From Dongia mobilis (GTDB lineage Bacteria > Pseudomonadota > Alphaproteobacteria > Dongiales > Dongiaceae), in contig NZ_SNYW01000007.1 in assembly GCF_004363235.1 (NCBI RefSeq), positions 1-64,000 on the forward strand: a stretch of 64,000 nt of DNA. Direction: 5' to 3'. The position numbers and the translations under genes are program-made. A model generated the notes under the pieces. That model was not told the origin of the DNA. It saw only the letters and a program-made list of their open reading frames with translations, and searched no databases. Below, piece after piece: positions 15,501 to 34,607 of this stretch (positions are counted from its first letter, which is position 1; every line of letters starts with the position of its first letter).

Positions 15501-18500
15501 GGAGCCGCGATAGCGGGTCATCAACTGACGCGCCGGCAGGTGGTAATTGTCCATCCATTCATAGAAGCGTTGCCAGGAGCGGCTGATCTGGCCGGTCTCG
15601 GCGGGGGCTGCCCGCGCCCTGGCCGGATCGCGGGCAATGGATTCGCCGCGGGCCACCGCGGCCGCAATGCCGGCGAGGCGGGAGGTGCCCTCGGGCACGA
15701 CATGCATTGCCCGCAGCAGGCCGACGACGGCCAGGTTCTCGATGAAGTCCTCGCGCGCACGGCCGCCGGCAAGCAGGGGATTGTGCATCAGCGTGAGGAT
15801 GCCGGCTTCAGCCAGCGGGTCACCCTGCCGGATGAGAGAACGTGCCAGTTCGGCCGCCTTGCCGCCCGTACCCGGCCTGCCAAGGACCTGCAAGGCCTTC
15901 GACTGACCGAAGGCCTTCAGCTTCAGCACCCCGATGACGGCATAGTTGCTCAGGAATTCGGAGAGTAGGTTCTTCGGCGACCAGAGCGCGGGATCGGCCA
16001 TCTGCTCGGGGTTGATGGCGGTCTGGGCCGCGCGCGACAGCACGGTGAAGGCGCCCGCCTCGACCCCGAGGCGGATGCCGACGGCACCGAGGCGGGCAAG
16101 GGTGCTGACGCCATATCCCTCCGCCAGCGCGCCCACGGTGACCGCCCGGCTGAAACGCGCGGCGAGGCCGCCCGGCACGACCACTGTCGCCACCAGTTCG
16201 GCAGTCTTGGCTGCGTTGAGGACCTGATCGACGCGACCCAGAACGCCTTCCTTCGTGACCTCGGCGAATTCGCTGGCGACACTGGTCGGCCGCAATTGGA
16301 CGTGTTCGGGCAACTGATACTTGCCGTCCACCAGGAAGCCGTGCCGTGACAGGATCTTGCGATCCGCCTCGCCCAGGGTTTCAGGAGGATTGCTGGCGGC
16401 CCGGATTAGGGCGGCGTGCAATTGGCCTGCTGCTACGGTCAGGCTCTGCAGCGCTTCCCGTGTCGCCGCCTCGCCGACCAGCAGGTTGAAAGCGCGGGCC
16501 GGGCCGGCGCGATACCATTCAACGTTCATGTAGTCGACATAGGCGTCGATCTCACCGGCAAGCGAACGATCGCGCAACTCGACCAGTGCGGAGAAAGCCT
16601 TCTGTATCTCGCCGGCCGCGCGCGCAGATTCAAAGGTCGAAACCAGACCGCGTTCCTCATTGACCAGGAATTCGCCCTGCAGCCGCTGTGCCGTGGCACG
16701 ATTGGCGTCGCCGAAGCCGGAAAGTTGCTGCAGCATTTCCGAGAGCGGGTTGCTGGGTGCCACCAGACCGGTCAGAATTTTGGCTTCGTGGTCCAGCAGC
16801 TTGTTGAGCCGTTCGGCGGCAGCGGTGGGGTCCCTGCGCTCATCCTCCCACACCAGCTGTTCGCGACGCTGCTCATAATACCGCAGCTTGTTCTCGACGA
16901 TCGCGAGATCGAGCCAATAATCGATCTCCCGCGATCCGGGGACCATGTCGCGGCTGCTGGGCACATTGCCGTTCTTCGCAAGGTAGTCCTCGCGCAGGCC
17001 CCGGGCGTGGCGATAATTGCCGAGGTCCTTGCGTTGCTCGGTTATTTCGGCGGCACTCCAGCCGGGGGCGGTGCCGGCCAACGCGCGCTGTGCGCCGCGC
17101 AGTGCCACGTCGCGCGCCGTCTCCGGTGGCAGGAAGCCGACGCGGTCGACGCGAATGTCGAAGGATTCGCCACCGGCATAGCGGAAGCTGATATCCTCGA
17201 TGCCGTCCCGCTCTGTGCGCAGGGCCTCCAGCCCGGCCAGGGCCTTGTCCAGCGCCGCCTTGCGCGCCGGGTCGTCCTTGATCGCGGCGCCGAGATCGGC
17301 GAATTCGCGGCGGATGCGCTGTTCCTCGGCAAAAATTGCTGCATCCATGTTGCGGATGCGCGCTGCCAGTTCGCCGGCCCGCTGCGCGGGGTCGAATTTC
17401 AGCATCTCAGTGCGGGCGCGCAGTTGTGCCAGGGCGCGCAGATCGTAGAGCGCCTTCTGGCGGCGTTTCAGCATTTCGGTTCGCTGCTTTTCGTCCTCGG
17501 GCAGGGAACTGGTGCCGATGGCGGTCCAGCGGCGCTGATCGATCAGTTCGGTGATGGCATCCATCATCTGCGGGACCATGCGGCCCAGTGCCGCCAGCAT
17601 CGGTGCGCGTTGCTCTTCTGTCAGCGCGGGGTCCATGGCGCGCTGGCGGATCATATCGAGCAGGGCGCCGGTCTGGCGCATGTGCCGCATGGCCGACACC
17701 ACATCACCCGATTCCGCCGATTTCAGGAAGTCGCTCTGGCGCGCCATGGCGCGTTCCGCAAGATCGAAGCGCCCCAGCGCCAGGGCCTGGCGCAGGGCAT
17801 TGGCGAAGCCGTCCGCGGGCATCCCCGGATCGGAGAGCAGCGTTTCCAGCCCGGCCTGTGCATCGAGTGCGCCGGAGACGCTGTCGAGAAAGGCTGCGGC
17901 ATTGCGGCGATAGCTCTCGTCGAGGTCGGCCGCCGCGTCGAGCAGGGCGCGGGTGGCGGCGATCTCGGCGCGGAGGGACGCCATGCGCTCCCCGCTGATC
18001 TCACCCAACGTTGCCAGACGGATGTTGCTGACGGCCATGAGGGCGGAATAGGCAGCCGCCCCTTCGCCTTCCACCTTCTGCCCGGCCAGGGCAGTCAGCA
18101 GGGCCTGTGCCGCTGCCCGACGATTGCCGGCGAGGAGGCCGTCCAGGGCGACAAAGGCCGTGGCAAGGCGCACCTCCGCCGGCAGGGCGTCTATCGCCTT
18201 TGCCGCTTCGTCTGGGTTGTCGATCAACTGGATCGCGAGTCGTTCCGCCAGCAGCACCGGATCCGCTTCCTTGGCGTCGGCGAGCGCGCGGTCAAGTATC
18301 CGTGCGGCGGCCTTGAGATCACCGCCGGCCGCGCGGCGCCGTGCCAGTTCCAGTGCGGATGCGCGTGCGAGCATGGGATCGGCACCCCGGGCTATCCCAT
18401 CAAGCAGGGCGTCGATGCGCTTATCAATCTGCTCGATCGTGCCGAGCCGTTCGCGTGTGCCGGGTTCAAGCAATTCGTAGCCGTCGCGAATACGGGTGAG

Positions 18501-21500
18501 CGCTGCCGCCAGGGCGGCATCACGTTGCGCAGCCAAAGCGGGCGACAGCCCGGTGTCGTCCCCGAGGAGGGCAAGGGCCTGGTCGATTTCCCCGGCGGCG
18601 AGACGATGTCCTGCTTCGGCGAGGCGCGCCGCGAGGGCCTGTGCGGGGCGCCCCGGATCCTCGGCTGCATTCGGCACCTGTTCCAGCCAGCGGCGCTGTA
18701 AGGCATAGGCTGCCGCCAGATTGGCCGACAGTTTTTCGGCAAGGAGGGCGCCCCGCGGCGGTGACAGGCGTCCGGGCCAGGCGCTGGCCGCCGCTTCGAG
18801 CGTGCTGATCTGCGCGTCCAGTGTCGAAAGGGCGGCCTTCGGATCGGCCGGCTGCTCGATCCGCTCGAGGCTGCGGAGCGTTTCGGCAATCTCGTTGAGG
18901 AGCGGTGTGGCGTCGACGGCCGCGGCGCCGGCGAGGCCGGTGATGGCAGTAAGACGCGCCAATTGATCCAGTTTCGCAACGGGGTCGTTGGGATGCGCTG
19001 CGATCTCGGCGCCGATCGCCTGCCGCGTCTCGTCGAGGAGCCGGTCGAGGCGCTGCTTCAGTTTTTCGGCATGCGGCGCCGGCTTGCCGGCGGCATCGGT
19101 GAGGGCTTCCGAGAGAATGCGCGCCCGGGCGATGGAAAGATCGAGTGCCGCCGCCTTCTGGCCCTCCGAGGCAATCGCTCCGGCCGTCCGGGCGAGGAGA
19201 TTGTCGAGGAAAGCGACGTCGCTGCCCGCGAGTTCCTGCGCTGGGAGGTCGCCGAGTGAAGCCTCCACGATTCCCCGTGCCGTTTCGGGACCGAATCGGG
19301 CGGCGAGGCCCGACAGCACGGATGGCAGGGCACTCTGCGCCAGGCCCGCTTCCGGGAAATGCGAGAGCACGTCGGCATCGACCCAGGCCACATACTGGCT
19401 GAGCGGGTCCAACGCCGGCGCATTGACCTGGTTCTCCGCGATGACCCGCCGCTCGGCCGCCGCCTGCCCGCCCAGTTTCAGGAAATCCTGCACCATCTCC
19501 GCGCGGCGCTGTTGCAGACCGGCCGCTTCCGGCGACCCGGGCGGAAGTTCGGCCAGTTCGCCGTCGATCCTCAGGATGGCATCGCGCAGCACGCGCATGT
19601 CATCGTCGACACTGGTAGGCGCGCGCTGCAGCGGCGCCGGTTCCGGTTCTTCCTGCTGCTGTTCCTGCTCCTGCTCCTGCTCCTCCTGCGTCGCTTGATC
19701 CAGCTGATTACGCAGCCGGGCATGCTGGTCGGCAAGACCCTGGCGCTGCTCTTCGAGCGCGTTCGCCTGTTCCGATCCCTCGGCCACGCCTTCGAGCGCG
19801 CGGTCGATGGCCATCAGTTGTTGATCGATTTGGTTGAGCTCGGCGCCAATGTCATCGTGCTGGGTTTCGTTGCCGCTCGCCGGGTTCGCGGCGAGATCGG
19901 CCGCCTGCTCCAGTTCCGCGCGATAAGCGGCGTGTGTCTCGACAAGCCGCTGCCGCTGTGCGGACAATGCCGCTTCCTGGGCACTGGTAACGGCACCACT
20001 ATCGAGCTTGATGTCAATCTGGCGGATCTGTTCGTCGATCGAAGCCATCTCGGATTCGAGATGCGACGTCTGTGCCCTCAAGGCGGAGGCCGGCGTGGGC
20101 AGGGCAGGCGCTGTCTCCTCGGCCGCAACGTTGTCCGGGGCAATCTGTCCAGCGACCGAGAGAGCCTGTTCGAATCCCTGCAACTGGGCAACCAGACCGG
20201 CGCGCACCTGCTCCAGCGGTTGTGCCTCGGCCGCGCCATCCGGCATGCCGGCCAGTTGTGTGTCAAGTTGCTCGATTTGCCGCTCGATCATGTCGCGGCC
20301 GCGCGTCAGCGCATCCACGGCTCCCTGGTTCTGGGGAACAACGATCGTCTGGGCCGCCGCGGCGATGCTGCCGGCTGAAGGACTGGGTATCGAAATTGGC
20401 GCAGGTGTGACGTCCGTCGTTGCCACCGCTTCGCCGGCCACGTTGCTTGTGACAATGTCGATGGCCTTGCCGATGGCGGCGCCGGCCTCGGCAACAGCAC
20501 TTCCGGCGGCACTGATGGGATCGGTTTTCTTCTCCGCCTGGGCGATGGCGCCCTGTTGTTTCGCGAGTGCAACCTCGGTCTTGTCGGCAAGCTTGTCGCG
20601 CGTTGCCTCGGACAATTCCTTCGCCTCCAGGGTCTCCAAGGCCTTGTCGACCTGGACATAGGCTGACTCCAGCGCCTTTCTGGTCTCGACCAGCCCGCGC
20701 AGTTCCGGCACCTCGGTGTTCTCGTACTCGGCCAGTGTGTCGTCTATGGCATTGATCTGGGCTTCGAGACCGTCCCGGGCGCGGGAAAGCGATGCCGCCT
20801 CGGCGCTTTGCGGCACCGGCGGTGGCGGCGGCGAGGCGGCATTCTCGACTGCGGCCCGGTTGCTGTCGACCCTATCCTGCAACTGGTCGATCTTGCGTTC
20901 CTCGGTGGTGCGGCCCGCTTCGCCCGGCCGCAGCAGTTTCTGCCCCGCCATGCCGGCCGCGGCGCGATTGCGGTCGATCTCTTCCAGCTGCTTGCCAACC
21001 TGTCCCCTGGCAACATCCCACATGATGCCGACGCCCTCCTGCTGGATCGCCGGCTTGAAGCGATCCTCGACGATTTCGCCGCCGACACCCATGGATTCCA
21101 GATCGCCCTGGATGTCGGCCAACTCACCGCGCAATTGGGCGACGCGGTCGGTTGCTCCGGCCTGCTTGGCGGCGTCAAGTTCGACGCTGGCCTGGACCAG
21201 GCGCATCTGCTGCTGGGCAAGGCCGGAGACGCCGTTGGCCACGGCCTGCCGATCGATATTGCCGGCGGCATCCTTGGGCAGCCCTCCGGCGGCGGAAGCG
21301 TTGGCAATGCCGACATCCTGTTTCAACAGATCCAGCTGCGCATCCGGCAGCACCCCGCGCAATTCGCCGCGCAGTTTCTCGGCCTCGGCCTTCAAACGCT
21401 GCCCTTCCTGATATGAGCTGGAATTCATGGCATAGTTGTTCTTGGCTTCCTGGGCGGTCAGGAAATCCTCGGTCGCCGCCTCGAGTGCCGCCCGCTGTTT

Positions 21501-23897
21501 CATGACCTCATCACGCAGGGCGGCCGGACCAGTGAAGGAGAAGCTGTGGCGGCGCTCGAGTTCGGCCTGCGAGCGCGGCAGCTCGGGGTCGCTGCCAAGA
21601 TTGCTCCAGCGGTCTATCGTGGCATCGCTGTCGCCAAGCTCCTGCAGCTTCCTTTCGCGCATCTCGATCTGTTCGTAGGCCTTGTTCTGCTGCTGCGCGA
21701 GATCACGCCAGGTCGAATCGCTCATGTACTTCTGCCCGTAGGCGACGTCCTTCAGCTTCGCATCGATTTCCTCCAGCTGGCGCGCCAGGTCCAGCGCCTT
21801 GTCGGCAGCGCCGCCTGGCTGTGGCACGACCGCCCCGCCAATGTCTCCGGTCAGCTTGTCCAGATCGTTGATGACGTTGCCAAGGTTCTCGCGTGTCTTG
21901 GCAAGATCCTGATCGCTCATGTTGCGCCAGTAGTCGGCCTCCGCCCGAGCAGCCCGGAGGCTGTTTGGATCTGTTGCCGTGATACCGAGTGACGCCGCCT
22001 CGCTGGCACGCGCCTGCTCTTCCGCCGACTTGGCGGCGTCGGAGAGCTTGTCCCCCAGTCGGTCGAGGCGCTCCATTTCAGAGCGCAGGCGGTCGGCATC
22101 GGCATCGCCTATTCCGCCCTCCGCCTCCATCCATTTGGCCTGCCGGCGCAGATCGTTCTTGGCGCGCTCGACCTCGGCACGCTGTTCCCTGATGGCATCA
22201 ACCCGCTGCTGGTCGGCGCGCGCCTTTCGCTCGGCCTCGTTCATACCGTAGCCACGATCCTTGAGGTCCTCGAGTTCGCGGCCGTCCGCCTGCCAATCGC
22301 GCACCTTGTTGTTGAACTTCTGCGCGTCCTTCTGCAGCTGCGTCTGGTCCTTTTGTAGCTGCGTCCGCTCCTTCTGAAGGTCTGCTCGCATGCGCCGCAC
22401 GTTCTGGCAGCTCGAACTGCGGCAGTTCGGGTCATCCTTCTTCATCTCGTCTTCGATATTGCGCAGATTCTTGTCTTCCGTATCGAGGTCCTTCTCCTGC
22501 TGGCTGAGATCGTCGCCGCGGTTCTTGAGATCGCGCTGCTCGTCGGCCAGGTCCTTGCCGGTCTTCCTGTGTTTTTCCTCGCGCTCTACGCGGTCGCGAT
22601 AGCGCTTGTCGCGCTTGCGGCGCTCCTCCTCTGCGTCTGCTTTTCTCTTCTCCTCTTCTGCCGCCTTCTTCTGGCGTTCGGCTTCCTCGCGCAGAGCCTT
22701 CTCTCGGGCGGCCCGGCGCTTCTCCTCCTCTGCAATGGCGTCATCAACCGCGTTGGGGTCGATCGGAATTTCGATGGTTTCCTTCGGTGGCTTGGCAATG
22801 GCGATCCTGTTGCCGCCCTGGATCATCTGGCCGAGCTGGCCGATCAAGGCCAGGGTCTCCGGCCCCATGATCTGCTTGCTCTGCGTTGCGGTAGCGATGT
22901 CCTCCTCGACCTGGGCATAGCCTAGTTTGCTCTGCGCGCGCTGCTTGGCCGCCTCCATCTCGCCAATCGCGCGCAGGGTCGCCTCGTATTCGATCTGGGC
23001 TTTTGATTTCTCCGGTGGCTTGTGCTCGGCATGACGCTGCTCATTGGCGCCTTTCGCCGCCGCGACTTCGCCGCCTTCCGTGGCCTGCGCTTCGGCCACC
23101 ACCGCCTCGCCTTCGGCGGGTGCGCTCGCACCCTCTTCGACTGGTGCGGCGGCGGCATTGCCACCGCCGCCAGCGGAATCTTCTCCGGTCGTGGTGGCTA
23201 TTTCATTGTCACCACCGGTCGCTGCGGTGGGCGCGCTCGCCGGCGGCGCCATCGGCGGGTCCTCGACCACGCTGACCTCCCCGCCCATGGGCACCAGCAG
23301 GGTTGTGCCGCCCGGGCTGGTCAGCACCTGTGTCGGCAGGGTTGCCACCGGAGTCTCGACCGGTGGCGGGTTGTTCGCAATGCTGACAAAGGGATAGCGC
23401 GATTCAATCAGCGCCGGGGCGGATGGTTGGCTGGGTGCCGTCTCAAGCGGCGCGCCTTGGGTAATCTGGCTGCCGACAACACCCGCCGGCAGGGTGGTCA
23501 GGCTCGGCGCCGGCAGGGGATAGGTCGATACCGTTGGCGTGGGCGAATAGGTCTCGGCCGGGGTCGCAATTTGCGGCGCCAGGGAAAAGGTGCCGGTGAG
23601 GTTGTTCTGATAGACGGGCAAGGATTGCGTCGTGGCCAGTGCGTAAGGGGAAACATAGCCTTGGGCCTGCGTTGCCTGCTGGGCCTGCGTCGCCTGGCTG
23701 GCGAGGCCGCCCGGTGACACGTAGTTGGGTGTCGTCGTGTATATGCCGGGTGATGACGTGCCGCCACCGACATAGATCTCCTGGGCCCAGGCGGAATTGC
23801 CGACCGACGTCATGATGCAGAATGCCAGGGCGGCAGCTAGGCAGCTGCCCGCCGAATCAGGCGCCGGGGGTCCGAGGTGGAAGGATCGGTGAACCAT
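12528..23897 (-). CDS. Giant exported coiled-coil/multidomain protein, 3789 residues
   Basis: Not recognised as a named family. A signal peptide (about residues 1-38, hydrophobic core then A-W-A/Q) indicates export. Regions in order: a Pro/Thr/Gln/Ala-rich stretch (about 40-330); a highly charged Lys/Glu/Arg coiled coil (about 380-1000); five tandem helical hairpins of 60-70 residues (about 1025-1475) with a Gln/Glu run; Ala/Leu-rich helices (about 1500-2530); a hydrophobic patch (about 2560-2665); a segment with FGSENLTSDYDIS (about 2848-2858) that looks like a nucleotidyltransferase-fold G-S ... D-x-D motif; more coiled coil; a tandem ILEPLEMP repeat; and a C-terminal domain of about 350 residues. 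I chose the ATG at 23897 because GGGAG lies 8 nt upstream; an in-frame ATG at 23930 lies inside a palindrome. It is divergent from the small exported and CsgG-like genes. A very large toxin or adhesin delivered to the surface is possible (inference). Confidence 0.8.
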   Translation of the reverse strand: MVHRSFHLGPPAPDSAGSCLAAALAFCIMTSVGNSAWAQEIYVGGGTSSPGIYTTTPNYVSPGGLASQATQAQQATQAQGYVSPYALATTQSLPVYQNNLTGTFSLAPQIATPAETYSPTPTVSTYPLPAPSLTTLPAGVVGSQITQGAPLETAPSQPSAPALIESRYPFVSIANNPPPVETPVATLPTQVLTSPGGTTLLVPMGGEVSVVEDPPMAPPASAPTAATGGDNEIATTTGEDSAGGGGNAAAAPVEEGASAPAEGEAVVAEAQATEGGEVAAAKGANEQRHAEHKPPEKSKAQIEYEATLRAIGEMEAAKQRAQSKLGYAQVEEDIATATQSKQIMGPETLALIGQLGQMIQGGNRIAIAKPPKETIEIPIDPNAVDDAIAEEEKRRAAREKALREEAERQKKAAEEEKRKADAEEERRKRDKRYRDRVEREEKHRKTGKDLADEQRDLKNRGDDLSQQEKDLDTEDKNLRNIEDEMKKDDPNCRSSSCQNVRRMRADLQKERTQLQKDQTQLQKDAQKFNNKVRDWQADGRELEDLKDRGYGMNEAERKARADQQRVDAIREQRAEVERAKNDLRRQAKWMEAEGGIGDADADRLRSEMERLDRLGDKLSDAAKSAEEQARASEAASLGITATDPNSLRAARAEADYWRNMSDQDLAKTRENLGNVINDLDKLTGDIGGAVVPQPGGAADKALDLARQLEEIDAKLKDVAYGQKYMSDSTWRDLAQQQNKAYEQIEMRERKLQELGDSDATIDRWSNLGSDPELPRSQAELERRHSFSFTGPAALRDEVMKQRAALEAATEDFLTAQEAKNNYAMNSSSYQEGQRLKAEAEKLRGELRGVLPDAQLDLLKQDVGIANASAAGGLPKDAAGNIDRQAVANGVSGLAQQQMRLVQASVELDAAKQAGATDRVAQLRGELADIQGDLESMGVGGEIVEDRFKPAIQQEGVGIMWDVARGQVGKQLEEIDRNRAAAGMAGQKLLRPGEAGRTTEERKIDQLQDRVDSNRAAVENAASPPPPPVPQSAEAASLSRARDGLEAQINAIDDTLAEYENTEVPELRGLVETRKALESAYVQVDKALETLEAKELSEATRDKLADKTEVALAKQQGAIAQAEKKTDPISAAGSAVAEAGAAIGKAIDIVTSNVAGEAVATTDVTPAPISIPSPSAGSIAAAAQTIVVPQNQGAVDALTRGRDMIERQIEQLDTQLAGMPDGAAEAQPLEQVRAGLVAQLQGFEQALSVAGQIAPDNVAAEETAPALPTPASALRAQTSHLESEMASIDEQIRQIDIKLDSGAVTSAQEAALSAQRQRLVETHAAYRAELEQAADLAANPASGNETQHDDIGAELNQIDQQLMAIDRALEGVAEGSEQANALEEQRQGLADQHARLRNQLDQATQEEQEQEQEQQQEEPEPAPLQRAPTSVDDDMRVLRDAILRIDGELAELPPGSPEAAGLQQRRAEMVQDFLKLGGQAAAERRVIAENQVNAPALDPLSQYVAWVDADVLSHFPEAGLAQSALPSVLSGLAARFGPETARGIVEASLGDLPAQELAGSDVAFLDNLLARTAGAIASEGQKAAALDLSIARARILSEALTDAAGKPAPHAEKLKQRLDRLLDETRQAIGAEIAAHPNDPVAKLDQLARLTAITGLAGAAAVDATPLLNEIAETLRSLERIEQPADPKAALSTLDAQISTLEAAASAWPGRLSPPRGALLAEKLSANLAAAYALQRRWLEQVPNAAEDPGRPAQALAARLAEAGHRLAAGEIDQALALLGDDTGLSPALAAQRDAALAAALTRIRDGYELLEPGTRERLGTIEQIDKRIDALLDGIARGADPMLARASALELARRRAAGGDLKAAARILDRALADAKEADPVLLAERLAIQLIDNPDEAAKAIDALPAEVRLATAFVALDGLLAGNRRAAAQALLTALAGQKVEGEGAAAYSALMAVSNIRLATLGEISGERMASLRAEIAATRALLDAAADLDESYRRNAAAFLDSVSGALDAQAGLETLLSDPGMPADGFANALRQALALGRFDLAERAMARQSDFLKSAESGDVVSAMRHMRQTGALLDMIRQRAMDPALTEEQRAPMLAALGRMVPQMMDAITELIDQRRWTAIGTSSLPEDEKQRTEMLKRRQKALYDLRALAQLRARTEMLKFDPAQRAGELAARIRNMDAAIFAEEQRIRREFADLGAAIKDDPARKAALDKALAGLEALRTERDGIEDISFRYAGGESFDIRVDRVGFLPPETARDVALRGAQRALAGTAPGWSAAEITEQRKDLGNYRHARGLREDYLAKNGNVPSSRDMVPGSREIDYWLDLAIVENKLRYYEQRREQLVWEDERRDPTAAAERLNKLLDHEAKILTGLVAPSNPLSEMLQQLSGFGDANRATAQRLQGEFLVNEERGLVSTFESARAAGEIQKAFSALVELRDRSLAGEIDAYVDYMNVEWYRAGPARAFNLLVGEAATREALQSLTVAAGQLHAALIRAASNPPETLGEADRKILSRHGFLVDGKYQLPEHVQLRPTSVASEFAEVTKEGVLGRVDQVLNAAKTAELVATVVVPGGLAARFSRAVTVGALAEGYGVSTLARLGAVGIRLGVEAGAFTVLSRAAQTAINPEQMADPALWSPKNLLSEFLSNYAVIGVLKLKAFGQSKALQVLGRPGTGGKAAELARSLIRQGDPLAEAGILTLMHNPLLAGGRAREDFIENLAVVGLLRAMHVVPEGTSRLAGIAAAVARGESIARDPARARAAPAETGQISRSWQRFYEWMDNYHLPARQLMTRYRGSWADARKDYQAGKLSESDMRKLVELRKWVVDSLSAEIVAELKGEVQAFGSENLTSDYDISFVGPKAQLAVILFNARFLNRWGAAVDIGGRETGIILDTNAYTAPEHKNYSGGERDIWLQDAYAQLSARKYLSDSAWKEYRQRLESSADGPRLKEMFDWVEQQHQRLQQQIQTEIARLEAGQAPKATKAELQLVEDRAKGENDIVVQNRLYEKTLRDIADLIDQYKAATDPAARAEIAQRIRNAQSEALYFAQEAYQTQAAIDHVVLSIQAAKRKITVESLLGDGLPKLTVEFTPEMARQSFVEQIANMMKELSHGGDNAKLAAKAAKYFIRALDAARFAGVSLESYRELVEATVAIEANRSDPAKLNESLRKFDTKEGGADFVRRVIEASGTLMLDLHGGRGNTNLARYGEGPEALPAIGTRTEILEPLEMPGEIGTRTEILEPLEMPEGPLVGEAETARTTDTVILEPFVPPSGDPSKSSVDLSKSTAEERTNRLMAEMHEAEQAAAEARGRRIQAEIANRGFELIANDPVFARWREAAAGDPDLRAKLALIGNLRDLQTPAERAEADFALYVAERLIAGNSDLAGLDLLAVARHLNLNAGRQLLEQGTQHREMLTATALAIEGVRLQRPEARISLDSVIGAARIPGGMAVDAMSLARASLGSRQIDLPEPALGSYRPKVQAENLAQPDLVLARLDMEQLALLPRGNQPGDAAFYLENGLEPRLTIRAGGRVFHLSQPFLEREGKPAVIAFQETEFGTVVPRVFYLSNEHGVWRSAVGIENNSLLLKGPRIFRRGNQWSHSLSDLPVGSMEIGFANESAVDLAAELQPVLGRWLMAKGALDLPVPVRERAFFGNVENVSLAAEPKEFYSLVGFEDVRLPFEQRERGLHEGLLPDMTQGPIEQWRFRHDVYGDVTGQLVMTRNRQAVLVVLRTADGRVWVPSIQVANAAMSPFGTRWRSYLSNLTTTPMVHGLRGYVPNRRYENQLNAALR

Positions 23898-23918
23898 CGC
23901 AGTCACTCCCTGCATCGT

Positions 23919-23949
23919 CCGGACGGTCATTGGTGCTATGACCGTCCGG
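23919..23949. promoter_or_regulatory. Perfect 12-bp inverted repeat upstream of the giant gene
   Basis: Arms CCGGACGGTCAT and ATGACCGTCCGG flank a 7-nt loop. It lies directly upstream of the ribosome-binding site of the giant gene. It may be a protein operator or, if transcribed, a hairpin in the 5' leader. Confidence 0.55.
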
Positions 23950-24832: not shown

Positions 24833-24858
24833 GCCCATCATATCTGAGGATGCAACGT

Positions 24859-25953
24859 ATGGATCAGTCTGGCATCGACAAAATGTTCTCCCCAGTGGTT
24901 CCGGGATTGCTGGTTCTGATGCTCGGGTTCGGATCGCCTGTCACGCTGGCCGCTGAACCGGATGCCTCCGGGACCTGGAGCGCGTCGCCGCAGATCGCCG
25001 AGACGCCGCCGAATGACGATGGCTTCATCACCGAGCCGCCGGCGGCGCCCGGCGTCTTGACGGGCTCGGTCGCGGAGATCAGCGGACCAAAGCGCGTGGT
25101 CGCTGTTGCCCGCTTCGACGCGGCCGGTTCCTTCACCGCCGTCTATGGCAATTGGGATGTCGGCGGCGGGCTGGAAGCCATGCTGATCACGGCCTTGCTG
25201 GAATCGAAGCGCTTCATTGTCGTCGAGCGGGCGCAGATCCAGCCCATCCTCGCAGAACAGCAGATGAAGGCGAGTGGTGTCACCAGTCCGACGACGGGGC
25301 CAGGCGTCGGAAACATCACTGGCGTGCATGCCTTCATCATCGGTTCGGTGACATCCTTCGGCGTCGATGAGAGCGGCGGCGGCTTCAGCCTGGGTGCCGG
25401 CGGCAGCGGCGGTCTGCTGGGTGGGGTTGTCGGCGGCTTGTCGCAGCAATCGCAGAGCGGCAAGGTCACGATCGATGTCCGCTATGTCAATGCGACGACC
25501 AGCCAGATCATGCAGACGGTAACGATCAGCGAGGAGATCGAGAATACTTCCTGGGACCTCTCCGCCGGATACAAGGGAATGAGCATCGGTACCAACCAGT
25601 TCTACAAAACGCCACTCGGCGAGGCGACGCGGCGGGCGATTACCCGTGCGGTGCAGCAGCTGGCAACCGAAGTCGGCAAGGTGCCCTGGAGCGGTCTCGT
25701 GGTCGACTATGATGGTGCCGAACTCTACGTCAATGCCGGCAAATCCAGTGGACTCAAGGTCGGAGACCGGATGAAGATCGAACAAATTGCCAAGACACTA
25801 ACCGATCCCGCCACGGGCGAGGTGCTGAGTGTCAAGAAGCAGACTCTCGGCATGGTCACGCTGACCAGCGTCGAGGAGCGGATCAGCTCTGGCAAGTTTG
25901 CGCCGACGGATCTCATCAAACCGCAGCGCGGCGATCTGGTCACTGCGCCCTAG
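24859..25953 (+). CDS. CsgG/HfaB-family curli-export-like protein
   Basis: 364 residues. After a signal peptide (hydrophobic residues about 12-30) the CsgG core is recognisable: RVVAVARFDAAG, GGLEAMLITALLESKRF, VVERAQIQPILAEQ and GVHAFIIGSVTSFG. A Gly-rich insert follows. CsgG proteins form outer-membrane channels that export curli or holdfast components; HfaB is the Caulobacter relative. No lipobox is present and no Cys is seen in the whole protein, unlike acylated CsgG. A C-terminal segment (SSGLKVGDRMKIEQI) looks like a small beta domain. The start at 24859 has GAGG 9 nt upstream; the ATG at 24850 overlaps that site. Confidence 0.8.
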   Translation: MDQSGIDKMFSPVVPGLLVLMLGFGSPVTLAAEPDASGTWSASPQIAETPPNDDGFITEPPAAPGVLTGSVAEISGPKRVVAVARFDAAGSFTAVYGNWDVGGGLEAMLITALLESKRFIVVERAQIQPILAEQQMKASGVTSPTTGPGVGNITGVHAFIIGSVTSFGVDESGGGFSLGAGGSGGLLGGVVGGLSQQSQSGKVTIDVRYVNATTSQIMQTVTISEEIENTSWDLSAGYKGMSIGTNQFYKTPLGEATRRAITRAVQQLATEVGKVPWSGLVVDYDGAELYVNAGKSSGLKVGDRMKIEQIAKTLTDPATGEVLSVKKQTLGMVTLTSVEERISSGKFAPTDLIKPQRGDLVTAP

Positions 25954-26018: not shown

Positions 26019-26522
26019 TTAGCCAGAGCCAGGATAGCGTCGCTGGCTTTGCCGCTCGGTTTCTGCCGGATGATCATCGACTCGATCCGTCGAATTCTGA
26101 CCAATGAGCCGGGGCAATGCGGCACGCGGCAGGACAATGTCGGCGAGCGTGTAGCGATCAAGCGTCGCGCCAAAGGCGGCCATGGCCTCGTCCAGGATAA
26201 CCCGCAGGCTGGCCGGAGTGGCGCTGGCGCCTCCTTTGCCGGCACCGCGTCCAGATGTGTGCGTGATATTCGCCTCCGTCCTGCGCAGAATCGCGCCGAG
26301 GCTCATTTCTTTTGGTGCCATGGCCAAAGTGAACCCGCCGGCCCGGCCGCGTACACTGCGAAGGAAGCCTCCGGCAGTCAGGAACGTCACCACCTTGGTC
26401 AGGTGGGAGCGCGACACGTTATAGGCGCGCGCTGTTTCCCCTACAGTGATCAGCCTCTCACTGTTCGCCGCCGCATACATCAGCACCCGCAAGGCGTAGT
26501 CGGAGAATACCGTGATCCTCAT
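26019..26522 (-). CDS. Rrf2/NsrR-family regulator without cysteines
   Basis: 167 residues. The N-terminus (MRITVFSDYALRVLMYAA) and winged helix (NVSRSHLTKVVTFLTAGGF, GRAGGFTLA) are those of Rrf2 regulators, closest in pattern to NsrR. NsrR and IscR use three Cys to bind an Fe-S cluster; here the corresponding segment reads HTSGRGAGKGGASATPASL and the protein has no Cys at all. It therefore probably senses something else or acts without a cofactor. Its position at the end of the nos group, with an NsrR-like dyad upstream of nosR, suggests it regulates nos expression (inference). Confidence 0.85.
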   Translation of the reverse strand: MRITVFSDYALRVLMYAAANSERLITVGETARAYNVSRSHLTKVVTFLTAGGFLRSVRGRAGGFTLAMAPKEMSLGAILRRTEANITHTSGRGAGKGGASATPASLRVILDEAMAAFGATLDRYTLADIVLPRAALPRLIGQNSTDRVDDHPAETERQSQRRYPGSG

Positions 26523-26544: not shown

Positions 26545-27507
26545 TCACGTCCCGGGCGTGCTCGCGTCGTCTATCAGCCGGCGCAGCGAGGCCAGCCGTT
26601 GCAACACGTCCGCCAGATGATTGGCTGCCTTGATCCTGACCTCCTCACTGGCGGATTCCAGAACTGCCCGCTCCAACCTCTCGGCCATTTGCTCAAGCGG
26701 CTTCTGCGCGGCATTGAGCAGGGCGATGCGCCCGGCATCACCGGCGACGTTCTCCGGGGGTGCGATGTTGACCGGTAGTGAAGGTTCGGCGTAGCCACCG
26801 GCTGGTCGAATGAGGCCCCGCAGTACCGCCGCTGCCTCTATGGCACCTATTTCCGTCAGCTGGTGGCTGATCGGAATGAGGCTGCCGGCGGCTTTCTGTT
26901 CGTAACCGGCGATCAACTGGTCCAGGACGCCCGGTGAGGTCACCTCGACGGGCAGGGAATCAACCTCACCCCGTCGATAGGCGGCTCGGCGCCATTTGCG
27001 CAGAAGTGCGGCATGGTTCAGTTCCTCCTGAGCCAATACCTCGGCGAATCTGATTGTTTCTGCATCTTCGGCCTCGGCCGCGATGAAAGTGTAGAAACTG
27101 AAGGCGCGCTGTTCGTTGTCGACGGCGATGGCGAGCGCTCGATAGGCCGTCAGCAAGGCGCTCCCCGCAACGCGATCCCAGGACTCGGCAAATTCCGGCG
27201 GCAGCCGCCAGGCATGAGTTTCCGGTTGGATCGCCGGACAGCCGACTTGTGCCGCCAGCTTTTGAATAGCGCGGATATGGCCATCTTCCTCGAGCGCCAT
27301 ATCGGCGAAGACGGCGGACGTCTCGGCTTCGCCCCGGCGTGCCATCGCCGCAGCCAGTTCCCGGTATCGCCTGACGGCCTCGGTCTCGATGGCGAGCGCT
27401 ATCGACAGCAACTCCGCGAGACTGCGGACATGCGTCGACGGATGCGCGGCGAAATCCATCCGCGGTGGCCGCCTGCCAGACCTTTCACCCTGTGCATCCC
27501 GCACCAT
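26545..27507 (-). CDS. Ferritin-like (rubrerythrin-type) di-iron protein
   Basis: 320 residues. The first half is a four-helix ferritin-like domain with two E/EExxH-type pairs: IETEAVRRYRELA with ALEEDGH, and DNEQRAFSFYTF with AQEELNHAA. These would bind a di-iron centre as in rubrerythrin. The C-terminal part is helical with no clear metal-binding CxxC rubredoxin motif. Rubrerythrin relatives reduce peroxide or handle iron; here a role in protection during denitrification is only inferred from location. GGAGG lies 9 nt before the ATG at 27507. A downstream in-frame ATG at 27459 is possible. Confidence 0.72.
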   Translation of the reverse strand: MVRDAQGERSGRRPPRMDFAAHPSTHVRSLAELLSIALAIETEAVRRYRELAAAMARRGEAETSAVFADMALEEDGHIRAIQKLAAQVGCPAIQPETHAWRLPPEFAESWDRVAGSALLTAYRALAIAVDNEQRAFSFYTFIAAEAEDAETIRFAEVLAQEELNHAALLRKWRRAAYRRGEVDSLPVEVTSPGVLDQLIAGYEQKAAGSLIPISHQLTEIGAIEAAAVLRGLIRPAGGYAEPSLPVNIAPPENVAGDAGRIALLNAAQKPLEQMAERLERAVLESASEEVRIKAANHLADVLQRLASLRRLIDDASTPGT

Positions 27508-27599: not shown

Positions 27600-28040
27600 T
27601 CAATGGGCAAGTTCGCCGAACAACTCTTCGAAGACTTTCTTCGCCTTGCCTTTCTGCGGAACGGCCCTGGCGTCCTCGAAATTGACCTTCGGGTCGCCAA
27701 CTACAACCAGGGCGACCATTCCCATGGCATAGTGCGGCTTGCACTTGATCCCATAGACCCCGTCCTGCGCGAACGTGATCGTTATCGCTTCGTTGATCTT
27801 GCCAACAAAGGGCTGCGCACCCTCCGGCAGCATGCCTTCGATGGATTCGGCGTTGTGGCTCTTGTCAGTCGGCACGAAATGCACGGTATCGCCGGGCGCA
27901 ACCTGCAGCACAGCAGGTTCAAACACCATAACGCCGCGTTCGCCCTTGTTCAGCATCTTGACTTCATGCTCCGCAGCCTGCGCGGTGCCAATCGACAACA
28001 AGGCAAACGTCGCCAGGATCAGGACGGATCTCAAACTCAT
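27600..28040 (-). CDS. Pseudoazurin, periplasmic blue copper protein
   Basis: 146 residues with a signal peptide ending TAQAA. The type 1 copper ligands are visible: His in DKSHNAES, then Cys, His and Met in IKCKPHYAMGM. Pseudoazurins donate electrons to nitrite reductase or nitrous oxide reductase in the periplasm; next to the nos genes, NosZ is the likely acceptor. I chose the ATG at 28040 because AGGAG lies 9 nt upstream and the signal peptide starts there. Confidence 0.9.
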   Translation of the reverse strand: MSLRSVLILATFALLSIGTAQAAEHEVKMLNKGERGVMVFEPAVLQVAPGDTVHFVPTDKSHNAESIEGMLPEGAQPFVGKINEAITITFAQDGVYGIKCKPHYAMGMVALVVVGDPKVNFEDARAVPQKGKAKKVFEELFGELAH

Positions 28041-28148
28041 GATCGCAAACTCCTCTTTCTTTCTTCTTCTAGATGGAGGCCCTGCCAGGGGCCCACCTGA
28101 ATGCCGGCTACGAATCGTGCCGGCCGGCAATCCGATCCCCATCCGGGA

Positions 28149-29126
28149 TCAGCTGCCCTCGACTACCCGGATGCCCGGGTATTGCATCTGCAATCGCCTT
28201 CCCTCACCACGCGGTAGAATGGCCAGCGCCGTGGAAAGTCCATCTGCTAGCGTCGCGGTTGCGGCGGCGACACTGACCAGGCGGCCGGCTACAACGGAGC
28301 AGCCGGTGCGTGGATCAAGCAGGTGGTTGTGCCGGCCGCTCGGTTCGAAGAGGGTGCCCGCAGCGCCCGAGGTGGCCAGTGCGGCAAAGGCGCCCGGCTG
28401 GGTGCCCATATCCAGAACCTGGTCGCTGCCGGCGATGCCGGCCCGCCAGGCGGTGCCATCGGGTGCTCGGCCGAGCGCGGTGATCTCCCCAAGATTGACC
28501 ATGGCATCGGTGATGCCGGCTTCGGCCAGCCGCGCCGTCACCCGATCTGCCAGATAGCCTTGCGCTATGCCGTTGAGCGTCACCGCCATGCCGGCGCGGC
28601 CGAAGGCGATCCTTTCCGGGAGGATCTCCATAGCAGCGTAATCGACCAGGGCCAGGGATCGCGTGATCTCGTGTGGTGATGGGCCAGCCGGATTGGCGTT
28701 GGATACTGCAAAATGCCGAGCATAGAGGGCAAACAGCGGTTGAATGGTGGGATCGAAGGCGCCGCCGCTGCGCCCGGCCAGTCCCTGCGCCTCATTCAGC
28801 AGGATAACGAGATCAAACGGCGGCGACGCCAGGAACCCGTCCCGATTGAGGGCGACCAGCGCCGAATCCGGCCGGTAGAGACTGAAGATGCGCTCCAGCC
28901 GTTCGATCTCGTCCAGCGCCAGTTTGACAAAGTGCCCGGTCCTCATTCCCTCTGGGTGGAGCAGTCGCATCTCTGCGGAAGCGCCGAGCGCGCTGCCACG
29001 CCAGTGCAGCAACTCCGTACCGCCGCGCGGTGCCTTGGCCATTCCGGCCTGGGGCCACTGGCCGGCAAGCGCGAGACCGCCGGCCGCGCCGGTGATCAGC
29101 ATGCCGCGGCGGCTAATGCTGGCCAT
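28149..29126 (-). CDS. nosX: NosX, ApbE-type FAD:protein FMN transferase
   Basis: 325 residues. A twin-arginine signal (SRRGMLITGAAGG) precedes an ApbE domain: IFSLYRPDSALVALN, GGAFDPTIQPLF, VTLNGIAQGYLAD, NLGEITALG, HHLLDP-like HNHLLDPRTG and DGLSTALA. NosX flavinates NosR in the periplasm. The start overlaps nosL by 14 nt, which indicates one operon; an upstream ATG/GTG at 29186 would lie far inside nosL. Confidence 0.9.
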   Translation of the reverse strand: MASISRRGMLITGAAGGLALAGQWPQAGMAKAPRGGTELLHWRGSALGASAEMRLLHPEGMRTGHFVKLALDEIERLERIFSLYRPDSALVALNRDGFLASPPFDLVILLNEAQGLAGRSGGAFDPTIQPLFALYARHFAVSNANPAGPSPHEITRSLALVDYAAMEILPERIAFGRAGMAVTLNGIAQGYLADRVTARLAEAGITDAMVNLGEITALGRAPDGTAWRAGIAGSDQVLDMGTQPGAFAALATSGAAGTLFEPSGRHNHLLDPRTGCSVVAGRLVSVAAATATLADGLSTALAILPRGEGRRLQMQYPGIRVVEGS

Positions 29127-29676
29127 GGTCACCTCCCTCGCCCGACGCATCACCCGCGGGAATCTCGCCGACCCAACCCTCACCAAGGATGAAGTCGCGC
29201 GGCATGTCCGCCAGTGTCACGACGGCGCCGCCGAACCGGCCGCGAAAATCCGCCGCTGATTCGGGATCAGAGAATGGCACCGCTTCCGGAGCGCCCATGC
29301 CGCCGAGGCGCGAGCTTCCGATCACGAAGTAGGCCGCACTGGCGTCGACCCAGGCGCCGGCTTCCGGCTGATCCCAGTTGCGCGCGCGTGCCATGTCGTT
29401 GACATAGACGACCAGGAAGTTCTTCGCCTCATCGGGCAGCAGGGTGAAAGCCAGCGTATCGCGCACCGAGGTGAACCAGATAACCGGCGATCCATCCGCG
29501 AGGTGGATTTGCCCCTTCGGCCCGGCATGTTCCTCGAGGTTCATGCCGCAGAAATAGCCAAGTGATTCGGCTGTCGGCTCCAGCGGTGCTGGCAATGCGC
29601 CGGTTGCGGGCGCGCCGTCGCAGGCGCCGACAAATCCTGCCAGCGCGAGGGCAGCGATCAGACGCAGCAGCCTCAT
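29113..29676 (-). CDS. nosL: NosL, copper chaperone lipoprotein for NosZ
   Basis: 187 residues. A lipoprotein signal with lipobox FVGAC anchors it to the outer membrane. The metal-site motif is YFCGMNL, with further conserved elements GPKGQIHL, WFTSVRD and GAPEAVPF. NosL carries Cu(I) to the CuZ site of NosZ. Its start overlaps the nosY stop by 4 nt. The C-terminus ends in a His/Gly stretch (GGDHGQH). Confidence 0.92.
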   Translation of the reverse strand: MRLLRLIAALALAGFVGACDGAPATGALPAPLEPTAESLGYFCGMNLEEHAGPKGQIHLADGSPVIWFTSVRDTLAFTLLPDEAKNFLVVYVNDMARARNWDQPEAGAWVDASAAYFVIGSSRLGGMGAPEAVPFSDPESAADFRGRFGGAVVTLADMPRDFILGEGWVGEIPAGDASGEGGDHGQH

Positions 29677-30500
29677 GGTTGCCTCCTCGAAAAGACCCGG
29701 ACGGTGAGGGCAAGCGGTGCAACAACCCAGGCCAACAATGCCAGCAATTGCTGAGCATTGCTGCCGCCCTCGGCAGTTGCGGTGCCGGTAAGGCCGGACA
29801 ACATGGCAATGCGCGGGTCGCTGGCAAGATTGTAGAGCCGATAGGCGTCAGTCGGGTTGAGCAACAGCAATGCATCGAGCGTCGCCGTCCCGATAAAGCG
29901 GCCCTGATCCGCGACGAGCAGGGCAAGCAGCGCGCCGTCATAGAGGAGGACGAAAACCAGCCAGATGCCGACCGCTGCTCCCGCCGCCGTGGCCCGTTCG
30001 CGGACGGTGACGCTGACCAGGCCGCCAATAGCAATGAAGACGGCGCCGAGCAGGATCGAACTGGCGATAAGCCGGATAAAGGCCGGCCAGTCGCCCGCAT
30101 CCGAACCGTGCTGAAGCAGCAGCAATAGGCCGGCAGCACCGAAGCCAAGCAGCGTGGCTATCACGAGGATCACGCTCTGCCCCAGGAACTTGCCGGCGAC
30201 GATCTGCCAGCGTGTGACAGGATAGGACAGCAGCAGCAGCAGGGTACCGCGCTCCGCTTCGCCCACCACGGTGTCAAAAGAGAGCATCAGCGCCAGCAAT
30301 GGCACCAGGAAGATGGTCAGGCTGGCTAGGCTGACTACGGTCAGGGAAACCGGATCGGCATCGACGACGCCGACCGGCGCGCTGCCGAGGAAGACGATCG
30401 ACACGGCAAGGGCGGCCAGCACCAGCGTCGTTGCGAGCACAAGGCGATTGCGTATGCCGGCCCGAACCTCCTGCATGGCCATGCGCAGAATGGCTTTCAT
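29673..30500 (-). CDS. nosY: NosY, ABC transporter permease for CuZ maturation
   Basis: 275 residues with about six membrane segments. Family motifs include AMQEVRAGIRNRLVLATT at the N-terminus and FDTVVGEAERGTLLLLLSYP. With NosF and NosD it forms the NosDFY complex that supports sulfur and copper assembly of NosZ. The ATG overlaps the nosF stop (ATGA). Confidence 0.92.
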   Translation of the reverse strand: MKAILRMAMQEVRAGIRNRLVLATTLVLAALAVSIVFLGSAPVGVVDADPVSLTVVSLASLTIFLVPLLALMLSFDTVVGEAERGTLLLLLSYPVTRWQIVAGKFLGQSVILVIATLLGFGAAGLLLLLQHGSDAGDWPAFIRLIASSILLGAVFIAIGGLVSVTVRERATAAGAAVGIWLVFVLLYDGALLALLVADQGRFIGTATLDALLLLNPTDAYRLYNLASDPRIAMLSGLTGTATAEGGSNAQQLLALLAWVVAPLALTVRVFSRRQP

Positions 30501-31423
30501 TGGTCTTCCTCCGCCTGCGCCAGAAGATGCTGATAGAGGCGGTCCAGCGTCGGCGGTTCGATTTCGATGTCCTCGATCCATGATCTCGAAGTGGCCAGAA
30601 TGTCGAGGAATGAAGGCAGATGTCCGGCGGGAATACGAAAGTCCAGCCGATCAGGCGCCGGACGGCTCATCTCGATCCCATTCGCGTCTATGCACGGCAT
30701 GCTGTGCGCTGCATCATGCCGCAACCTGACTTTTGCCATGGTCGGCAGCGCGGCCGCCCCGCGCAATTCTGTCAGGGTTCCGGCCGCAAGGACGCGGCCG
30801 CCATGGATCAGGATCACTTCATCCGCGTGGGACTCGATCTCGGCCAGCGCGTGGGTGGAGGCGACGACGGTCTTTCCCTGCGCCCTCAGCGCATCGATCG
30901 TTTCATACATGCGATGCCGGGAATGCGGGTCAAGTCCCGAGGTGGGCTCGTCCAGCAGCAGCAATTCCGGATCGCCCAGCAATGCCTGTGCCATGCCTAG
31001 TCGTTGCCGCATACCCTTTGAATAGGTGCCGACGCGCCGGCTGCCGGCATCCTCGAGATTGACCTGCGAGAGCAGTTCAACCGCGGCCGCGGCCGCAACA
31101 CCCTTAAGACCGGCGAAGAAGCAGATCAACTCGCGACCGGTCATGGCCCCATGAAAGGTCACCGTCTCCGGCAGAAATCCGATCCGGCGCCGCAGGATTG
31201 ATGCATTCCTGCCGGCCGGGTCGGCACCAAGTACCGCGACCGAACCTGATGTCGGGCGAAGCAGGCCCAGCAGCAGTTTCAGAAATGTCGTCTTGCCGGC
31301 ACCGTTGTGACCGACCAGGGCAACGACCTTGCCGGGCGCCAGCGTAGCGCTGACGTTCTGCAGCGCAGAAATTTGAGCAAAGCGCATCGTGACATCGTCA
31401 AATCTGGCAATCGTCTGGTTCAT
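30497..31423 (-). CDS. nosF: NosF, ABC transporter ATPase
   Basis: 308 residues. The Walker A is GHNGAGKTT, the Q-loop is in FLPE, the signature is YSKGMRQRL and the Walker B is LLLLDEPTSGLD, with the H-loop in STHALAE. It energises the NosDFY transporter. The ATG at 31423 overlaps the nosD stop as ATGA; the frame runs 50 codons further upstream inside nosD and is not used. Confidence 0.93.
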   Translation of the reverse strand: MNQTIARFDDVTMRFAQISALQNVSATLAPGKVVALVGHNGAGKTTFLKLLLGLLRPTSGSVAVLGADPAGRNASILRRRIGFLPETVTFHGAMTGRELICFFAGLKGVAAAAAVELLSQVNLEDAGSRRVGTYSKGMRQRLGMAQALLGDPELLLLDEPTSGLDPHSRHRMYETIDALRAQGKTVVASTHALAEIESHADEVILIHGGRVLAAGTLTELRGAAALPTMAKVRLRHDAAHSMPCIDANGIEMSRPAPDRLDFRIPAGHLPSFLDILATSRSWIEDIEIEPPTLDRLYQHLLAQAEEDQ

Positions 31424-32688
31424 GGTGCCTCGGCTGCTTGGGTGGGCGGCGTCATGAGTGGCGCCGAATCGACGACGCCGCCGGGATAGAGGGCCGGAAA
31501 GCGCGATTGCACCAGGCGCACAAGATCGATGGCGGGACTGTTGAGCAGCAGCTTCGCCGACGGATGGCGCCACAGAATGTCGTCGACCAAATCGTTTGGT
31601 TGGTAGGGACGATCGGAGATGCCGTCGCCATCAAGATCGAACGCCGGATTGTCGCTCCAGTAATTTCCCGATCCCTCATGCGACCACTCGACCAGGCGGG
31701 TGCCGACATATTTCACCTGGGTCCGGTTCCGGATAAAGGCATTGCCGGCAACAGTGTTGCGCTCCGACCCCGCAGTGAAGTGGATGCCGATGCTGCAGCC
31801 TTCGAAACGATTGGCCTCGATCAGGTTGCGGTGGGCGTTGTAGATGAAGAGGCATTTCTCACCACCGTCACGCACCAGGTTGCCGGAGACCACGGAACGA
31901 TTGGCATAGTTCAGCAACAGGCCGTGGTCGCGATCACCGATGCTGACGTTGTCTTCTATGCGCAGATGGTCGGAATACATGATTGCATAGCCGACATCGT
32001 TGCCGGTCGACAGGTTCGCGATAATCTCGCTGTCATGGGTATACATGTAATGGATCGCGAAGCGCAGGCTGGCGAAGCGGTTGTGGAGGAACCTGTTCTT
32101 TCGGCTGTTATTGACGAAGATCCCGTCGCGCACGTCCCTGATGTCATTGCCAGCGACGATGCTGCCCGGTGCGTTCCAGAGCGAGACGCCGTTGCCGCGA
32201 TCGGACAGGCGCAGCCCGACCATGCCGGTGATGAGGTTCCCATCGACTCGCGAGTCGACCGCACCGTGCAGATAGACGCCGAAAAGATTGCCGGCGAGGT
32301 GGTTGTCCTTTACCAGCAACCGACTCGCCGGCCGTTCTGCCAGAATGGCCGCGTCCATGGACGGCACGTCCCGGCCCGAACCTTCAATCGTGAGGCCCTG
32401 AATAGTGACATCGTCGCCGGTTACTGTGACGACGCTGCCAACTCCCCGGCCCCGCAGGATGGCGCCAGGCTCACCCGCAAGCGTGACGGAATGGTCGATC
32501 TTGATCGGTCCAGCGTGGTTCCCGGCGGCAAGCACAACGGTCGCTCCGGCGGCGGCATTGTCGACAGCCGCCTGCAGGTTCTCTCCCGCTTCCACCCGGA
32601 TGCCGCCTTCGTCGGGGGCGGCCGCCGCGGCAAAGGCCGCGACGGCACCCGCCAGCGCGAGCAGGCCGATGATCGACCTTCTGATCAT
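31420..32688 (-). CDS. nosD: NosD, periplasmic beta-helix copper maturation protein
   Basis: 422 residues with a signal peptide ([17 protein letters not shown]). The mature protein is a right-handed parallel beta-helix of CASH/PbH1-type repeats rich in N-x-I/V and G-N ([34 protein letters not shown]). NosD pairs with NosFY in delivering to NosZ. The conserved C-terminal YWSDN ... [13 protein letters not shown] is present. Its ATG overlaps the nosZ stop as ATGA. Confidence 0.93.
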
Positions 32689-34607
32689 GCGGCGCGCGGC
32701 TCCACGATCATGCGCCCGGACATCTCCATATGCAGGGCATGGCAGAACCATTGGCAGTAGTACCAGTAGACGCCCGGGCGGTCGGCCTTGAAGGTAACCG
32801 ATGCCGTTGCCTGCGGGCCCACCTCCATGGCGATGCCGTAGTTGATGATGGTGAAGCCGTGGGTGAGATCCTCGACGTCGTCCATGTTGGTGACATAGAC
32901 AGTGACCTCGTCGCCCTGGCGCACCGTGAAGCTCTCCAGGCTGAAGGCAGGCGCCACGGAGTACATGTAGACGCGCACCTTGCTGGGGTCATCCTTGTCG
33001 CGCACCACATCGGCCGCATATTCCAGTTCGATGCCGTCCGCCTTGGCCTGGACTCTCGCATCCTCGAACATCGGATCGCTGCGGTCCCACACATGGACCG
33101 GGTTGACCTTCGAGCGGTGGATAATGGTGGCGTCGTGCGGCTCGGCAAAGCTGGGTCCGTCATGCACGATCTGCATCGTGTCGCCCGAAATGTCGATCAA
33201 CTGATCGCATTCGGGCTTCAGTGGGCCGACGTTCAGGAAGCGGTCCTTGGAGAACTTGTTGAGAGAGAGAAGCCACTTTCCGTCCGCTTCCTTGGTCTGT
33301 CCCATCGAGGTGTGGTTGTGGCCCGGCTGATAATGGACGTCGAGTTTCTCGATAATCGGGTCAACCTGTTCGCCCTTGTAGGCGCGGATGGCCACATCGA
33401 TGTTCCACTTGCAGACCTGGCTGTCGATGAACAGGGTGGTATAGGCATTGCCTTTGCCGTCATAGGCGGTGTGAAGCGGGCCAAGCCCCAGTTGCGGCTC
33501 GGCAACGACCGTATCGCGCGGTCCGATCTTGTCGGCGAAGAGGTCGTCGAACAGGCGCACGTCGAACACGGTCACGGTCGGTGAAAGCTTGCCGTTGGCG
33601 ACGACGTGCATGCCATCGGGAGCGGTATTGATGCCGTGCGGCGAGTTCGGCACCGGTACGTAGCGCGTGTATTTGGATCCCTTGCGGCCGTCGACTACGG
33701 GCACGCCGCCCATTTCCTGGAAGTCGCCGTTGGCAATGGCGCCTTCGATCGCCTTGAGATCGAAGATGACGATGTGGTCCTGTTCGGCTGCGGTTGTTTC
33801 CGCCAGGGTTACGCCCTCCTCGGAATTGTAGCAGGTGGCGAAGCAATACTTGCCCTGGTAGTCGGCATCGACGTTGTCGAGATTGCCGCTGACCATCACC
33901 TGCCAGGCGACCTTCATGGTTTCGCCGTCGACAGCGCTGAAGATCGAGTGGTACTTGCGGGGCTCGTCCAGGATCTTGCCGTCATTCGGCACGGGCACGC
34001 GGTATTCGCCGTTGGCGAAGACGTAGCCGGTTTTCGGGAATTTCTGCACACGCAGGCCATGCACGGTGTGCTGGTTGGGTAGCTCGATGATCTTGTCGCA
34101 TTTCATGACGTCGCAGCGGATGCGGGCGACGCGGGTGTTGGCCTTGTCGTTGACATAGACAAAGCGCCCGTCGTAGGTCCCATCGGTGAACGACATGTGC
34201 GGGTGGTGGAGATCGCCGTTGAGCCACACGCCGCCCCGGCTTTCCAGGAAGGCGCGGGTCTCCGGGGTGAGGCCTTCGGTCAGAATCTTGCGGCTCTCGT
34301 TGGTCTGACCCCAGCCGGTCGCGCTGCAACGGTTGAACACGGGGATGCGCATCAACTCGCGCATCGAGGGGAGGCCGACGATGCGGACCTCGCCACTCTG
34401 GCCGCTGGAGAAAAAGACGTAGTATTCGTCCAGCTCGCCGGGGCCGACATGCTTGGCATCGTTCTGCGCCGCTGCCCGCCGCGGGGCGATCATGGTGCCA
34501 CCGGCAAGGCCGCCGGCTCCCGCTAGGCCGGCCAGGACCGTGGCCTTTGCGGTGCCTCCCAGCAGGCTGCGGCGGCTGAATTCTTCGCGGATCTCTTTCT
34601 CGGTCAT
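32685..34607 (-). CDS. nosZ: NosZ, nitrous oxide reductase (Tat-exported, clade I type)
   Basis: 640 residues, the normal length. It reduces N2O to N2 in the periplasm. The Tat signal is SRRSLLGG. The propeller carries His residues for CuZ ([12 protein letters not shown], HHxHG-type [17 protein letters not shown] and later His). The C-terminal cupredoxin domain has the CuA site: H in THGFTI, then [12 protein letters not shown] with C-x3-C, His and Met. A Tat signal with nosR and nosX nearby is typical of clade I. GGAG lies 7 nt before the ATG at 34607; longer in-frame starts run into nosR and are rejected. Confidence 0.96.

Follow-up and report, generated by a model that had tools for sequence, protein, structure and literature searches.

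A cysteine-free NsrR-like Rrf2 protein at the nos locus of Dongia mobilis and a predicted NsrR-type box upstream of nosR

The window, that is the whole stretch of 64,000 nucleotides that was analysed (Dongia mobilis, contig NZ_SNYW01000007.1, positions 1 to 64,000), carries on its minus strand a nos gene array in the order nosR, nosZ, nosD, nosF, nosY, nosL, nosX/apbE, pseudoazurin gene, rubrerythrin-like gene and, as the last gene, rrf2, the product of which is called P0002 here. The genes of the array are as follows:

34649 to 36907, minus strand: nosR (45-71% identical to its counterparts in other nos clusters; PF12801)
32685 to 34886, minus strand: nosZ, TAT-type, open reading frame with a probably internal true start (TIGR04244, 1116.7 bits)
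31420 to 32751, minus strand: nosD (TIGR04247)
30497 to 31573, minus strand: nosF (PF00005; comparison with other nos clusters)
29673 to 30581, minus strand: nosY (PF12679; similarity to nosY of other clusters)
29113 to 29676, minus strand: nosL (PF05573)
28149 to 29186, minus strand: ApbE-like FMN transferase, nosX (PF02424)
27600 to 28142, minus strand: pseudoazurin, open reading frame with a probably internal true start (TIGR02375)
26545 to 27507, minus strand: rubrerythrin/ferritin-like protein, separated by 22 bp from rrf2 downstream (PF02915)
26019 to 26522, minus strand: rrf2, cysteine-free NsrR-like Rrf2 regulator P0002 (504-bp open reading frame with ATG start, 167 amino acids)

Gene order and spacing suggest that the array from nosR to rrf2 is co-transcribed.

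P0002 does not contain a single cysteine in its 167 residues. It scores well above the cutoffs of the Rrf2 profiles PF02082 (90.4 bits, cutoff 30) and TIGR00738 (82.8 bits, cutoff 73.3), and a comparison by sequence with the PDB places S. coelicolor NsrR chains at the top. The original prediction of a cysteine-free Rrf2/NsrR-like regulator beside nos genes is thus borne out by the open reading frame, the cysteine count, the profiles and the neighbours, the strand being minus. P0002 remained under the NCBIfam cutoffs for RirA (NF008886, 90.1 versus 193 bits), IscR (TIGR02010, 34.9 versus 207.55 bits) and CymR (NF047409, 42.8 versus 195 bits) as well as for NsrR (NF008240, 77.3 versus 182 bits), the latter being weak evidence, as the three-cysteine homologues are without scores for this profile. 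Since the defining cluster cysteines were tested for and are absent, the membership rule places P0002 among the Rrf2 proteins as a derivative of NsrR and not as NsrR itself. The reading frame agrees with that of the homologues on either side of the former cluster loop, and therefore a frameshift does not explain the loss of the cysteines; an assembly error was likewise rejected as its cause (genome 100% complete, 0.03% contamination).

The two regions of the protein that matter most for its interpretation lie at:

26208 to 26267, minus strand: former Fe-S loop ITHTSGRGAGKGGASATPAS, residues 86-105 (alignments; AlphaFold2 pLDDT below 50 at residues 87-99)
26373 to 26447, minus strand: helix-turn-helix region, residues 26-50, conserved, with S37, H40, L41 and K43 retained (alignment, model)

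In the alignment with the closest relatives, the columns of the ligand cysteines are occupied by Gly91 (26250-26252), Ala99 (26226-26228) and Ala104 (26211-26213), and in a gap-free alignment the second column falls on Gly98 instead of Ala99; replacement by Ser, Gly and Ala, as had been proposed, is therefore correct in substance. Cluster ligation of the NsrR/IscR type would be impossible in P0002 because all three cysteines are missing, as can be deduced from the ScNsrR work (PMC5411485). Cluster-based NO sensing, which the original prediction had ruled out altogether, can accordingly be described as very unlikely in the known way. When positions with the same residue in at least 80% of the homologues were taken as conserved, P0002 was found to retain 26 of 30 such positions in the N-terminal part and 12 of 12 in the C-terminal helix (38 of 42 outside the loop), versus 1 of 6 in the loop. 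The four N-terminal changes (L3I, I27V, I36V and I73M) are all conservative. Asp8, Arg12, H40, K43 and Glu83 are retained; Asp8 and Arg12 connect the cluster and the recognition helix in ScNsrR (PMC5411485). The glycine content of the P0002 loop (25%) is the family maximum, and one histidine is present. An unusually positive loop that would replace the DNA-binding function was considered and rejected, the loop charge of +2 being inside the family range (maximum +4).

Homologues were sought in the order, the class, plasmid records and genome contigs, and 132 proteins, up to about 57% identical, were aligned; an initial genome scan, with P0002 alone as query, had yielded no relative. All three cluster cysteines are present in 132 of 132 aligned homologues, several of which are encoded beside nos genes, and a conserved cysteine-free subfamily was therefore discarded. 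Close homologues at nos loci with the complete set of cysteines, which the original prediction had named as evidence against itself, do exist: they occur in G314 (L101), G081 (L100), L176, L181, L185, L190 and Mesorhizobium (L040), and G314 even has the identical rubrerythrin-rrf2 order adjoining nosR. On this alignment, the cysteine-free state is a loss specific to the P0002 lineage, seen in one genome, and not a trait of nos-linked Rrf2 regulators. An apparent second cysteine-free homologue at L147:14947 in Oricola nitratireducens was rejected: it is an 83-aa NsrR-like open reading frame that stops before the cysteine loop, and an intact, near-identical copy with three cysteines lies on contig L149. 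A literature search, mostly without subscription papers, did not find a cysteine-free NsrR at a nos locus.

In a tree calculated with the loop masked, and in which no experimentally studied NsrR is included, P0002 belongs to the NsrR branch, as sister (support 0.83) to 84 three-cysteine homologues that are alphaproteobacterial, NsrR-like and linked to denitrification and NO-defence genes. Its terminal branch is long (0.42 versus a median of 0.11). Among the neighbours of many homologues are nnrS, nnrU, DUF2249, a SufT-like factor, fdxA, truncated haemoglobin and nos genes.

An alignment-based AlphaFold2 model of P0002 predicts the Rrf2 fold, with a confident winged helix-turn-helix and a long dimerisation helix and with a disordered loop. 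This model was used for the structure comparison, the single-sequence model being poor (pLDDT 49). In the comparison (VIA-align 2), the model lies as near to operator-bound NsrR (7b0c; Z 16.2, rmsd 2.5, 137 residues aligned) as to cluster-free CymR (2y75; Z 16.1, rmsd 2.8, 127 residues aligned).

A palindromic motif finder, applied to the upstream regions of the homologues with the window excluded from training, returned the palindrome AAGATatATtgacaATatATCTT, which agrees with the published NsrR motif gATGyAT-N5-ATrCATc (PMC1274295). With similar regions removed, the motif was present in 57 of 71 non-redundant upstream regions, with a log-likelihood of 669 versus 51-62 in shuffles. The scan of the window with this motif revealed one outstanding site, located in the gap of 600 bp that precedes nosR:

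37014 to 37036, no strand assigned: predicted NsrR box AATATTCATATAAAATGTATCTT, 107-129 bp before the nosR ATG (29.8 bits; 29.6 bits after retraining)

The next site in the window reaches 11.9 bits, and 95% of the shuffle maxima lie below 13.5. In a search of the 4.19-Mb genome, carried out by patterns with mismatches and not by weight matrix, the box upstream of nosR was the sole site with 0 mismatches, and the reversed-pattern control gave 0. A second strong box of 29.2 bits was observed at G000 C6:22020-22042 (L196:9521-9543), directly upstream of sirB2-nnrS. The nos clusters that have no rrf2 linked to them (L096-L099, L102-L106) gave no such box, and G314, which has a linked rrf2, carries weaker boxes. 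FnrP and NNR activate nosZ in Paracoccus (PMC3541799). An FNR/NNR-type dyad was not found upstream of nosR here, whereas at a loose threshold it is present at 10 of 12 other loci; a simple sigma-70 scan gave no promoter-like site for nosR.

Four more Rrf2 genes above the cutoff are found in the same genome, one of which (G000 C2:621925, L003) encodes a canonical three-cysteine NsrR-like protein common to the congeners. Two congeners, in which the canonical type is the only NsrR, carry tandem NsrR-like boxes of 16-22 bits upstream of a truncated haemoglobin gene (L236:5018-5063 and L237:5041-5086). Searches of the genome for nitrite and NO reductases did not find NirK above the cutoff (best match a multicopper oxidase), NirS (match to a short beta-propeller protein) or NorB (a cbb3-type oxidase subunit came closest, at 24%), and the organism thus appears to lack both enzymes and to make no nitric oxide. 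NorB is present in G314 and G219, both of which have nos genes and three-cysteine NsrR-like proteins. The nosZ of the window is of the clade I type, and nor was reported from 89% of clade I nosZ genomes (PMC4250227), so that clade I nosZ without nor is a minority pattern. One nnrS is retained in the genome, and exposure to NO from outside is therefore still likely.

The explanation that we tentatively prefer, with a probability of about 0.45, is the loss of the Fe-S sensor from a regulator of the NsrR type: P0002 would now act as a cluster-free, NO-blind DNA binder local to its operon. It is suggested by a loss confined to the loop together with the retention of D8, R12, H40, K43 and E83, by the position of the best NsrR box of the genome upstream of nosR with rrf2 last in the array, by the lack of the box at nos clusters without linked rrf2 and of an FNR/NNR-type dyad here, by the failure to find NirK, NirS and NorB, and by the closeness of the model to both 7b0c and 2y75. 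NsrR proteins mostly act as repressors. P0002 would probably be a feedback repressor of nos, for which we infer both DNA binding and the direction of regulation: the apo protein would bind the box upstream of nosR and repress nos, as most NsrR proteins do, and because P0002 would be made from the operon that it represses, a negative feedback loop would cap nos expression at any NO level. Loss of NO sensing may be tolerated in an organism without nitrite and NO reductases, where NO would be no useful cue for N2O respiration.

Known systems bear on this proposal from both sides. P0002 resembles NsrR (S. coelicolor 5n07/7b0c, Magnetospirillum) in its fold, helix-turn-helix, Asp8/Arg12/Glu83, upstream NsrR-type box and link to denitrification genes, but differs in having no cysteine at the three cluster positions and in falling under the NCBIfam NsrR cutoff. 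The Magnetospirillum NsrR directly represses nosZ (PMC11014258). With CymR, a cluster-free Rrf2 regulator of cysteine metabolism, it shares the lack of Fe-S cluster ligands and an equally close fold (2y75); yet it lies on a different branch and its neighbours are nos genes instead of cysteine metabolism genes. It is also comparable to apo IscR and to engineered Cys-to-Ala Rrf2 variants (e.g., 5n08) as Rrf2 proteins without cluster ligands, from which it differs by an NsrR-like sequence and a natural loss. The main doubt comes from apo ScNsrR, which, with its three cysteines changed to alanine, fails to bind its operator because the recognition helix shifts (PMC5411485); a cysteine-free NsrR may therefore not bind DNA either. 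Operator DNA is bound by apo IscR (PMC5411485; PMC9338935) and CymR functions without a cluster (PMC9338935), so that the Rrf2 family permits both outcomes.

If P0002 followed apo ScNsrR (PMC5411485), it might be a decaying protein, with a sensor no longer under selection where NO is not produced and an apo form without DNA binding, and the canonical NsrR would serve the boxes of both nosR and sirB2-nnrS. The presence of that three-cysteine paralogue, the missing nir and nor genes and the long terminal branch are in line with decay. Moreover, both boxes could be in use by the canonical NsrR itself, which counts against P0002 as the binder; the boxes of the two congeners with only that type are weaker (16-22 bits). 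We nevertheless regard decay as rather unlikely, as the open reading frame is intact, the conserved positions are kept at 12 of 12 in the C-terminal and 26 of 30 in the N-terminal part with four conservative changes, and the sparing of all but the loop is unexpected under uniform decay.

It seems improbable that the loop of P0002 has been remodelled to sense something else, be it copper, a metabolite or a partner protein. Cluster-free Rrf2 sensors are known, the CymR of B. subtilis sensing via a thiol-lyase partner (PMC9338935), and the glycine-rich loop with its histidine would fit such a role, but the loop is predicted to be disordered and without a recognisable binding motif, and the searches gave no relative carrying this loop for comparison. 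That P0002 acts via the canonical NsrR, by competing for boxes or by forming heterodimers that lack one cluster and make the regulon less NO-sensitive, is quite improbable: the genome does have a second protein of the NsrR type as well as two strong boxes, D8 and R12 are retained, and in ScNsrR both subunits take part in holding the cluster, one by its cysteines and the other by Asp8 (PMC5411485), but the identity of 37% between P0002 and its paralogue and their differing recognition helices (SRSHL versus SESHL) make heterodimers uncertain.

Should P0002 indeed be a cluster-free operon-local DNA binder, it would be an example of an Fe-S regulator turned sensor-free, whose predicted operator lies in the promoter from which it would itself be expressed, in contrast to the abolished DNA binding upon cluster removal from NsrR, at least in S. 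coelicolor. It would also illustrate how organisms restricted to N2O consumption can free N2O reduction from NO signals, a point that bears on the understanding of N2O sinks. With the odds leaning against it, one may further speculate that, after NO production was lost, a repressor that once responded to NO turned into a constitutive feedback governor of N2O respiration, which kept its DNA target, had its Fe-S sensor erased and replaced the usual FNR/NNR control.

Some minor observations concern the surroundings of rrf2. A 3800-aa open reading frame with many charged helical stretches, without a Pfam match at E 1e-5, extends over 12528-23930 on the minus strand, and a gene for a CsgG-family protein (24850-25953, plus strand) adjoins the nos array. 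The rubrerythrin/ferritin-like gene (26545-27507) recurs beside nosR in alphaproteobacteria, including Sinorhizobium, Azospirillum, Shinella, Mesorhizobium and others, mostly in divergent orientation.
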